Below, one piece after another: positions 25,844 through 27,941 of a stretch of 37,140 bases of DNA. The notes below the pieces were generated by a model. The model searched no databases. It saw only the letters and a list, made by a program, of their open reading frames with translations, and was not told the origin of the DNA. The DNA is from Phycisphaerales bacterium (lineage in GTDB: Bacteria > Planctomycetota > Phycisphaerae > Phycisphaerales > UBA1924). The translations under genes were made by a program, and so were the position numbers. Location: positions 1 to 37,140 of the forward strand of contig JAJDDE010000168.1 of the NCBI GenBank assembly GCA_029260475.1, written 5' to 3'. Each line of letters starts with the position of its first letter. Position 1 is the first letter of the stretch.

Positions 25844-26551
25844 ATGAGCGACGCGCCGCGAACGAAGACGAACCCGTCCTACGACGAATGGGTCGAGTAC
25901 TGCTTCACGAAGGGGTTGAGCGACTTCCCTGCTCCCCACGACAACTCTGATGTGCTGCGATTCGTCTACGAAATCGATCCACTGACACTAGTGGGACACA
26001 TCATCCGTCTCTTTGAGCAGCCGGAGTTTCTCCTCGACCGGTACTCGCCGGACGACATCGGCCGTGGTGTGGCGTTCATCGTTGGCGTCCCTTCAGAATA
26101 CCTCGCGGTGATTTACAAAAAACAGTTCGACGACGCACAGCGCTCTCGCGTCTACCAAGCGGTTGCAAGTCTCTATGAGCATTGCATGGACCCGCTCACC
26201 GTAGCCGAAGAAGCGGGTTCACAGACGGGATGTAATCACGGCTCACCGTTGCAGTTTGCATTGTTCACCCTCTGGGAGAGCGGCGGCCTCGGATGGAGCA
26301 TCGTGTTCGGTAAGTATGGCCGCATGCAGGCAGCGTGTTTCGAAGCGATGGAGCGCGTCCTGCACACATGCAAGTCAATAGGGTGCCGCGAGAGTGCACT
26401 GTGTGGCTATGCGTATCTCGGCATGCGATTCCAGGCTGAATCTGGGAAGGCATTCGCTCGTTACCTCAGCAAACGTCACCAGCCAGCGTGGCTGCGAAGA
26501 TTTGCACGAGCAGGCGGGCACTACCACAACATGATCGATCCCGAGGCTTGA
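25844..26551 (+). CDS. Hypothetical cysteine-rich protein, 235 residues
   Basis: The family is not recognised. The product looks soluble and mostly helical, with cysteines spread along the chain (EYCFT, EHCMD, TGCNHG, AACFE, HTCKSIGCRES, LCGYAYL) but no clear CxxC zinc pair. Its C-terminus is basic (RYLSKRHQPAWLRRFARAG). The ATG lies 10 nt after the uvrA stop, without a ribosome site. Its base composition is visibly less GC-rich than uvrA, and codons such as CTA and AGT occur, which fits a recently acquired or lineage-specific gene. A small palindrome directly follows the stop. The function is unknown; a link to excision repair is possible from position only. Confidence 0.65.
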   Translation: MSDAPRTKTNPSYDEWVEYCFTKGLSDFPAPHDNSDVLRFVYEIDPLTLVGHIIRLFEQPEFLLDRYSPDDIGRGVAFIVGVPSEYLAVIYKKQFDDAQRSRVYQAVASLYEHCMDPLTVAEEAGSQTGCNHGSPLQFALFTLWESGGLGWSIVFGKYGRMQAACFEAMERVLHTCKSIGCRESALCGYAYLGMRFQAESGKAFARYLSKRHQPAWLRRFARAGGHYHNMIDPEA

Positions 26552-26552
26552 C

Positions 26553-26567
26553 TGAGGCACTGCCTCA
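26553..26567. terminator. Short palindrome after the unknown gene
   Basis: TGAGGCA-C-TGCCTCA has perfect 7-base arms around one central base and begins 2 nt after the stop codon. It could be a weak terminator or a protein-binding dyad. The octamer GGCACTGC within it recurs at 26580-26587. Confidence 0.3.
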
Positions 26568-26662
26568 TAAATGAAGCACGGCACTGCAGTTCAAGCCGAT
26601 GGTAGATCTTAAACGGTTACGCAGCGCTGTACCCATACAGGTACACCCTCTCGCGATCCAGA

Positions 26663-26770
26663 TCACCAAGCCGCACTTTTCAGGTTCGCGCGCTCGATCA
26701 TGCCCGGGATCAGGAAGAGGTCGATGAGCTGACCGAAGCCGAAGACGCCCAGCGTGACAACGCCGCCCTG
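26663..26770 (-). pseudogene. TM2-domain protein remnant (C-terminal half)
   Basis: The minus strand encodes a hydrophobic segment VTLGVFGFGQLIDLFLIPGM, then IERANLKSAAW and a stop. This is very close to the second helix and end of TM2-domain proteins, whose LIDLFLIPGM ending is characteristic. The frame stays open to a start at 26959, but the extra residues are charged and low in complexity (KKKPARTGRRNERDAHRR). They contain neither the first membrane helix nor the HRFY-type turn a TM2 domain needs. I therefore read it as the surviving 3' part of a truncated gene. A divergent charged-N-terminus TM2 protein cannot be excluded. Confidence 0.45.
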
Positions 26771-26946
26771 CTCGCCCACTTCCCCGACCATGGCTTCTTC
26801 GGTGTCACCCTCCGCGGTGTCTTTACAAGCACGCTCTTCGACATCGTGTCCCCCGAGGCGACGGTGCGCGTCACGCTCGTTCCGTCGCCCGGTGCGGGCG
26901 GGCTTTTTTTTGGGTTGCTGCTCATCCCGCAAGGTCGCCGCAGATA
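26764..26946 (+). pseudogene. PEP-CTERM-like protein remnant (C-terminal end)
   Basis: On the plus strand a frame with no usable start (open from 26606) ends with DHGFFGVTLRGVFTSTLFDI, then VRVTLVPSPGAGGLFFGLLL and IPQGRRR before the TAG at 26944-26946. The VPSPGA motif, hydrophobic helix and terminal arginine cluster match the sorting tail of planctomycete PEP-CTERM-type exported proteins. The FFGV...FTS stretch resembles the strand that often precedes it. The 5' part of such a gene is absent. It abuts the TM2 remnant on the opposite strand. The call rests on a short motif. Confidence 0.35.
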
Positions 26947-26976
26947 GCCCAGATCGCACCGGCGTTTCAGGATCGG

Positions 26977-26991: not shown

Positions 26992-27531
26992 ATGGTCCAG
27001 ATCTTCGTCTACATCCTGATCGCGGTCCTCGGCTCCGTGTTCGCGTTGGCGCTGATCACCAACTGGCTCAGCGGCACCAGCACCGCCTGGAAAGCGTTGC
27101 AGGAGCGGTACCCGCCGCAGGCACACGCGGAATTCGTGGAGACGCGGACCGCGCACGTCTTTCTCTCGCGGACCGACGACCCGCGGGGCGTGCTGAAGCC
27201 TCGGGGCTGCCTCTACGTGGGGTTGGGATGGTTCACCGCCAACCGCAACTCGCAGAACGTCCGGGCGGTGATCGACGACTACTCCATGCACCTGGCCCTC
27301 GACTCCGGCGCGGGTGGGCCCAAGGCCCCGATGTCCCTGCCCTGGGGCGCGATCCAGATCGGGCAGGTCTTTGCAACCCACATGGGGGAGCACTGCGTAC
27401 TGACCATCGACGAGTTCACATTGCTCGTGCCGACCGCCTCGATCGAGCGTGAGCTGCTCATGCGCCAAGCCCTCGACGACGAGGCGGCGGAGAACCCCTT
27501 CGAGAGCGACCCGGGAGAGGGAGCGTACTGA
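26992..27531 (+). CDS. Hypothetical membrane-anchored protein, 179 residues
   Basis: One N-terminal membrane helix (IFVYILIAVLGSVFALALIT) is followed by a soluble domain of about 150 residues. That domain carries FVETRTAHVFLSR, a GCLYVGLGWFTA strand pair, LPWGAIQIGQVFAT and an acidic end (DDEAAENPFESDPGEG). The helix could be an anchor or an uncleaved signal. No family is recognised. The stop codon overlaps the ATG of the rhodanese gene (TGATG at 27529-27533), so the two are almost certainly co-translated and may act together. The start is supported by the hexamer upstream and the hydrophobic N-terminus. Confidence 0.75.
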   Translation: MVQIFVYILIAVLGSVFALALITNWLSGTSTAWKALQERYPPQAHAEFVETRTAHVFLSRTDDPRGVLKPRGCLYVGLGWFTANRNSQNVRAVIDDYSMHLALDSGAGGPKAPMSLPWGAIQIGQVFATHMGEHCVLTIDEFTLLVPTASIERELLMRQALDDEAAENPFESDPGEGAY

Positions 27532-27941
27532 TGCCCGTGATGAAGACCATGGACGATTTTGCGCGTGAGTGTCGCGAGCGGGGCGTGCCCGAGATCGACA
27601 TCGAGGACTACATCGAACTCGCCCAGCGGCGGCCGACCACGAAGCTCATCGACGTCCGCGAGAAGGGCGAATGGCTCTGCGGGCGTCTCCCGAGGGCGAT
27701 CAACGTCTCGCGGGGCGTCCTCGAGAACAGCCTCGGGACCATCGCCTACAACGGGCGCATCACCGACCACGACCTCGCCCAGCCCATCGTCTTCTACTGC
27801 GGCTGCGGCGACCGCTCCCTCCTCGTCACCGAACGCGCGATGGAGATGGGCTTCGAGAACGCCTTCAGCCTCGACGGCGGCTTCAAGGAGTGGGCGAAGT
27901 CCGGGCTCGAGATCATCGTGGACAAGCGCTTCCCCTGGTGA
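27531..27941 (+). CDS. Rhodanese-like domain protein
   Basis: This 136-residue single-domain protein has the rhodanese fold: LIDVREKGEW for the conserved DVRE loop, a RLPRAINVSRG segment for the usual G-H/R-I-x-G-A-x-N, and the active-site loop YCGCGDRS. C90 is the expected sulfur-carrying cysteine (C-x-x-G-x-R-S), with a further cysteine at 92. FSLDGGFKEWAKSG is the typical C-terminal GG-x-x-x-W motif. It likely transfers sulfane sulfur or reduces a related substrate in the cytoplasm. It is co-translated with the membrane-anchored protein upstream. Confidence 0.9.
   Translation: MPVMKTMDDFARECRERGVPEIDIEDYIELAQRRPTTKLIDVREKGEWLCGRLPRAINVSRGVLENSLGTIAYNGRITDHDLAQPIVFYCGCGDRSLLVTERAMEMGFENAFSLDGGFKEWAKSGLEIIVDKRFPW

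Follow-up and report, generated by a model that had tools for sequence, protein, structure and literature searches.

Head-to-head remnants of a TM2-type gene and a PEP-CTERM gene in an intergenic gap of a Phycisphaerales bacterium

Two gene remnants share one intergenic gap

We found that the intergenic gap between the stop of a 234-amino-acid gene (25847-26551) and the start of a 179-amino-acid gene (26992) holds the 3' ends of two genes, each with its stop codon and neither with a start: a TM2-type gene on the minus strand (26663-26761) and a PEP-CTERM gene on the plus strand (about 26831-26947). The gap lies in a window of 37,140 nucleotides, the whole stretch of DNA analysed here, which is one contig (C168) of a 3.43 Mb genome in 210 contigs. 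An ordinary pseudogene scar is the most likely explanation. We see about an even chance that the gap is a non-coding scar of TM2 and PEP-CTERM pseudogene remnants, with one deletion between divergent neighbours as its simplest history. Under such a history the two genes would each have lost the start and most of the body, a single deletion would have removed both 5' ends along with the promoters between them, and the remaining 3' ends would now face each other head to head, with their meeting point near 26759-26764 or up to ~65 bases beyond it. In this account we infer that the two genes were formerly neighbours, that one deletion was involved and that the middle stretch between the remnants (26762-26830) belonged to the PEP-CTERM gene. 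The first-pass annotation of this DNA had proposed a single deletion of a divergent pair; the real 3' ends without starts, with the missing 5' ends facing each other, agree with that proposal, whereas comparison with relatives does not support it.

The part of a review on bacterial pseudogenes as junk DNA that we drew on (PMC3899985) offers a parallel, the comparison being our own: broken coding fragments persist between intact genes. The present case differs from what is described there in that two remnants lie on opposite strands, head to head. For annotation, neither remnant should be labelled a gene; the gap would record gene loss in this lineage.

The TM2 remnant

The minus-strand frame that ends at 26663 reads VVTLGVFGFGQLIDLFLIPGMIERANLKSAAW and then a stop, and its assignment draws on the frame, on protein and DNA matches, and on a codon-position pattern. 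Window positions 26672-26758 align to residues 37-65 of the intact 71-amino-acid TM2 protein of one relative, G016, at 62% identity (E 6.8e-7), and in that search 19 of 101 genomes, the window's own included, gave a match. DNA matches to the same part were found in G011 (66 bases, 83%), G016 (77 bases, 79%) and G024 (62 bases, 81%), with E-values from 1.3e-12 to 3.5e-9. The TM2 gene is whole in these three genomes and runs on through the first helix; the similarity in the window stops at 26758-26761. These matches bear out the earlier reading of this strand as the second helix and end of a TM2 protein with no first helix.

Across 24 codons, the window TM2 tail and 14 distinct other copies differ at 5-12 first, 1-7 second and 7-17 third codon positions, and 10-18 of the 24 residues are common (16 of the 21 loci matched the pattern, the window itself and a repeat of L060 among them; five were unread). 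Differences are fewest at second codon positions, which points to past selection on the TM2 protein. The piece resembles the TM2 domain (PF05154) in its second helix, in an IDLFLIPGM-type end that runs to the stop, and in its similarity to the intact copy through the second helix and C-terminus. It differs in having the second of the domain's two helices alone, without the first helix, the HRFY-containing turn or the start, and Pfam and NCBIfam searches of the TM2 and PEP fragments separately returned no families. The window piece is a remnant of a TM2 member and not itself a member.

A search of the same genome for the TM2 first half, using a hand-blended query, gave a single match to a different TM2 gene (E 0.07), and the remaining TM2 genes of this genome, on contig C109, belong to a different type. 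That no first half of the window's TM2 subfamily was found elsewhere in the genome with this query is consistent with a scar.

One other shortened TM2 gene was seen (L089, 3814-3912 on contig C193 of G007); it ends at residue 30 because the contig ends there, so that its apparent truncation is uninformative.

The PEP-CTERM remnant

The plus-strand frame is open from 26606 to a stop at 26945-26947, and its first ATG, GTG or TTG codon lies only at 26846, so the start of the PEP frame is absent. The ~39 codons at the end of this frame, from about 26831, form a PEP-CTERM-type tail, with a VPSPGA motif followed by a hydrophobic stretch (GGLFFGLLLIP) and QGRRR before the stop. A profile of the tail only, from the FD position on, matched this frame at E 2.9e-9 among 724 window frames, with the next match at 0.23; the earlier reading of a PEP-CTERM-like tail without a start thus holds.

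A whole profile of four tails (A1, with rows from G088, G021, G062 and G049) ranked the window best of 65 matches with E of 10 or less in its own genome (E 1.3e-8, 26750-26947) and matched at E 5.9e-10 among the six frames of the window, where the next match stood at 0.39; since its rows were chosen from matches of the window tail, this test is partly circular. The longer PEP profile aligns from 26750 in one frame without large gaps, and the part of the PEP profile before the VPxP motif scores E 0.26. This split in the signal makes the PEP tail secure from about 26831 and the body before it not. The tail of G010, itself one of the matches of the window tail searched alone, was used as a query and placed the window 11th of 49 matches in its own genome (E 0.00375). 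Searched alone against 101 genomes, the window tail gave 66 genomes with E of 1 or less, the best outside its own genome at 0.00113; this is the level of chance for one-genome E-values, so the lone-tail search would not support the PEP reading. Among these weak matches are the tails of G088, G021, G062 and G049, aligning over roughly 45-65 residues.

The published criterion for PEP-CTERM proteins (PF07589, TIGR02595), in the part of the source considered here (PMC1569441), is a near-invariant PEP followed by a hydrophobic helix and a basic cluster at the C-terminus. The window tail is like the proteins described there in having, at its extreme C-terminus, a Pro-X-Pro motif, a hydrophobic stretch and a basic cluster, and unlike them in that it reads PSP instead of PEP and has no start and no securely remaining body. 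PF07589 gave 30 matches in this genome, and the window tail is not among the matches listed. PEP-CTERM-type tails of the window's form occur at 22 other loci of the genome, 7 of 30 loci having been dropped from the comparison as off pattern (L099, L108, L110, L112, L116, L120, L124).

The lost gene was probably a large beta-helix-repeat PEP-CTERM gene, to judge by the relatives of its tail. The PEP-side relatives are proteins of at least 550 residues, with open frames of 800-992, and in our reading they carry repeated GG-rich, beta-helix-like stretches. A beta-helix-repeat PEP-CTERM group (L040, L042, L048, L053) was delimited by a C-terminus in which an L..DG...L part precedes ATL and VPxP.

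Two beta-helix proteins that resemble the presumed lost gene occur in the same genome (L226, 1736-3955 on contig C125, 739 amino acids; L227, 162-2279 on contig C153, 705 amino acids), and both appear to us to end in a dockerin-like stretch, not in a PEP-CTERM tail.

An intact single protein across the gap was also considered and was not supported: no start codon precedes 26846 in the plus frame, and the three strongest DNA matches listed, with 60 relatives searched, cover the TM2 part alone. A conserved full-length protein across the region, which the first-pass annotation had named as the finding that would overturn its reading, is likewise not supported by the DNA matches listed in these relatives.

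The middle stretch and the position of the join

The middle stretch (26762-26830, plus strand, 69 bases) lies in the same open frame as the PEP tail and may be PEP-gene body, a HisB-like strip or something else. The likely join is at 26759-26764, the end of the TM2 similarity, where the alignment stops and the window has G at 26762-26764 while intact TM2 copies mostly have W. Since the middle stretch is not securely PEP, the possible range of the join widens to 26759-26830, and the earlier placement near 26763-26786 falls inside it. If the middle stretch is PEP-gene body, the join would lie at 26759-26764 with nothing inserted, and the two remnants would directly abut, as had been claimed. Otherwise that claim would fail; there may then be two joins within 26759-26830, and a third source for the stretch would require more than one event.

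The spacing of the middle stretch in the PEP frame is as in the PEP relatives. Compared with the four PEP relatives, a 29-residue core (26756-26842) scored at shuffle level, with 368 to 1099 of 2000 shuffles reaching the score, and Pfam returned no families for this core. The HisB protein of G009, whose identity comes from a family search, fits the middle stretch better than the PEP relatives do. At the DNA level the match is 78% over 51 bases (E 1.3e-4 as a one-genome value, with 61 genomes searched), and in the protein alignment of LLAHFPDHGFFGVTLR from the middle stretch with MLDAFATHGRFGLTLR from this HisB the score is 44, which 2 of 1000 shuffles reach. The strip spans 26768-26818 and resembles the HMLDxFxxHGxFGLTLR part of HisB.

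This strip could be a third fragment in a different history, in which the two tails came from non-neighbouring genes and were brought together by inversion, insertion or patchwork acquisition; more than one join may then be involved. We regard this alternative as a serious possibility that stays short of probable. HisB (PF00475) has no match in the window's genome, as in 35 of 60 relatives, which would fit an outside source. When 25 HisB proteins from relatives were scored, two exceeded 99% of 300 shuffles (L232 and L252, the latter being the same G009 gene), but the other 23 fell below that level. Moreover, the DNA differences to HisB number 6, 5 and 1 at first, second and third codon positions, the reverse of the TM2 case and of diverged coding relatives. 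This fits a chance likeness of GC-rich codons better than descent from HisB, and the match may be explained by GC-rich third positions common to both. A search with a HisB profile built from 10 of the 25 proteins did not have the middle-stretch frame among the matches listed.

One further DNA match crosses the end of the TM2 similarity (window 26733-26788, 79%, in G048, E 6.7e-5 as a one-genome value). It sits among long unrelated frames, and the TM2 search gave no match in G048. Another weak DNA match covers 26839-26869 (G019, E 1.4e-4).

Gene order in relatives

We questioned whether relatives keep TM2 and PEP-CTERM genes as an intact divergent pair, the support that the first-pass annotation had asked for. 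The C-terminus of uvrA gave matches with E of 1e-60 or better in 78 of 81 genomes, the window's own included, and the stretches downstream of uvrA were read in 31 relatives (L090, L186-L215; several are shortened by contig ends). TM2 was found in none of the 31. A clear PEP-CTERM tail was present in two, under a stricter pattern than our loose first one (L201 and L203), about 0.9 kb after uvrA in G014 and about 3.1 kb after it in G016; both tails lie on the other strand from uvrA, which is not the case in the window. At the TM2 loci, the TM2 match was recovered in 17 of 19 stretches. None of the 19 held a PEP-CTERM gene divergent beside TM2, with L086 and L089 lacking the upstream side owing to contig ends. 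PEP-type or A1 matches occurred in four of these stretches (L079, L081, L088, L094), none divergent beside TM2. The expected pair was thus seen in no relative examined, at either kind of locus, which speaks against a single deletion and for an origin of the tails from non-neighbouring genes. No same-genus genome is among the relatives listed; the pair may have been confined to that genus, and its absence elsewhere is therefore weak evidence.

Other gene orders are also in keeping with a patchwork. In G016, G061, G075 and G082 the TM2 gene is next to a DnaB-like gene or separated from it by one gene, and in G011 it lies elsewhere; a pfk-like gene was seen in L079-L081 only, among the TM2 loci L079-L082. 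In this reading of neighbours, the choice of open reading frame sometimes took longer wrong-frame ones. A relative of the 179-amino-acid gene stands near uvrA without TM2 in G026 and G066, directly after uvrA in the latter, and hence the window material could be a patchwork arrival. Against a patchwork, a search for repeats gave short ones only, and the left block's low GC is what its gene families usually show (see below).

The order of the flanking genes bears on an assembly or binning artefact, in which the join would be absent from the organism. The genome is a draft of 210 contigs, which leaves room for such an error, but the genes on the two sides of the gap, uvrA on the left and the 179-amino-acid gene, tRNA-binding region and dacB on the right, also occur together in relatives. 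The order in G026 is uvrA, another gene, the relative of the 179-amino-acid gene, the tRNA-binding region and dacB; G001 has uvrA, the tRNA-binding region and dacB together, and uvrA and dacB lie within 7 kb of each other in G062, G009 and G065. Because the tRNA-binding-region query and one query derived from G026 had been translated in the wrong frame, matches to them mark similar DNA, not protein. Flanks found together in relatives argue against a chimeric contig, and the tetranucleotide contrast of 0.198 found at the join, though high, is inside the contig range of 0.129-0.212. We consider an artefact improbable.

The hairpin, the T tract and the open minus frame

A terminator-like hairpin followed by eight T lies inside the PEP frame (26885-26911, plus strand), with 3 overlapping hairpin matches against a shuffle mean of 0.4. 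The 8-T tract noted earlier is present, within 26900-26915. Among the 23 pattern-fitting PEP tails of the genome, the window has a run of 8 T and the other 22 have 1-3; L115 is the sole other one with a hairpin and then 5 or more T within 8 bases. The tract would fit an origin by drift in a dead gene, by homopolymer error or as an exapted terminator, and it would matter only if shown to act. It is unlikely that the PEP-CTERM remnant became a working intrinsic terminator, with the GC-rich VPSPGAGG codons as the hairpin and the expanded T8 as the U tract; were this so, the 179-amino-acid gene would be insulated from transcription of the upstream 234-amino-acid gene.

More broadly, the fusion might have made something functional, either a 98-amino-acid protein from the minus frame (26663-26959) or the hairpin with its T tract, and we judge this very unlikely. 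The minus frame is indeed open for 98 codons, and the hairpin and T8 have the form of a terminator with a T run longer than in the 22 other tails. However, the plus frame occupies the opposite strand over the first ~66 codons of the minus frame, and none of the three strongest matches listed covers these codons; the hairpin is ordinary for its composition, its fold being no more stable than shuffles (z 0.23).

Neighbouring genes and base composition

The names uvrA, dacB, phosphofructokinase (pfk), DnaB and tRNA-binding are ones that we presume from a reading of the proteins, with no family search behind them. A rhodanese at 27531-27941 was found by family-model search. Searches for RNA families and for tRNAs gave none in the window. 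A spacer with a GC content of 0.532 separates the 234-amino-acid gene from the TM2 stop (26552-26662), and it is absent from the best DNA matches listed for the 60 relatives searched.

We also considered whether the left side is a foreign block of low GC, and this was not supported. Among other TM2 loci with a valid measure, GC is below that of the flanks in 15 of 18; it is higher than the flanks in L067, L077 and L078, and L065 and L074 were too short to measure. For the 234-amino-acid gene, GC is below the flanks in the window and at all 5 relatives' loci computed, of 10 matches.

The 179-amino-acid protein has matches in 4 of 101 genomes, its own included, and a contig scan with it gave 82 pattern matches, none of them confirmed. 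The 234-amino-acid protein, for which Pfam gave no match over the cut-off, has matches in 8 of 101 genomes, its own included, and two of these matches are adjacent to each other in G068.
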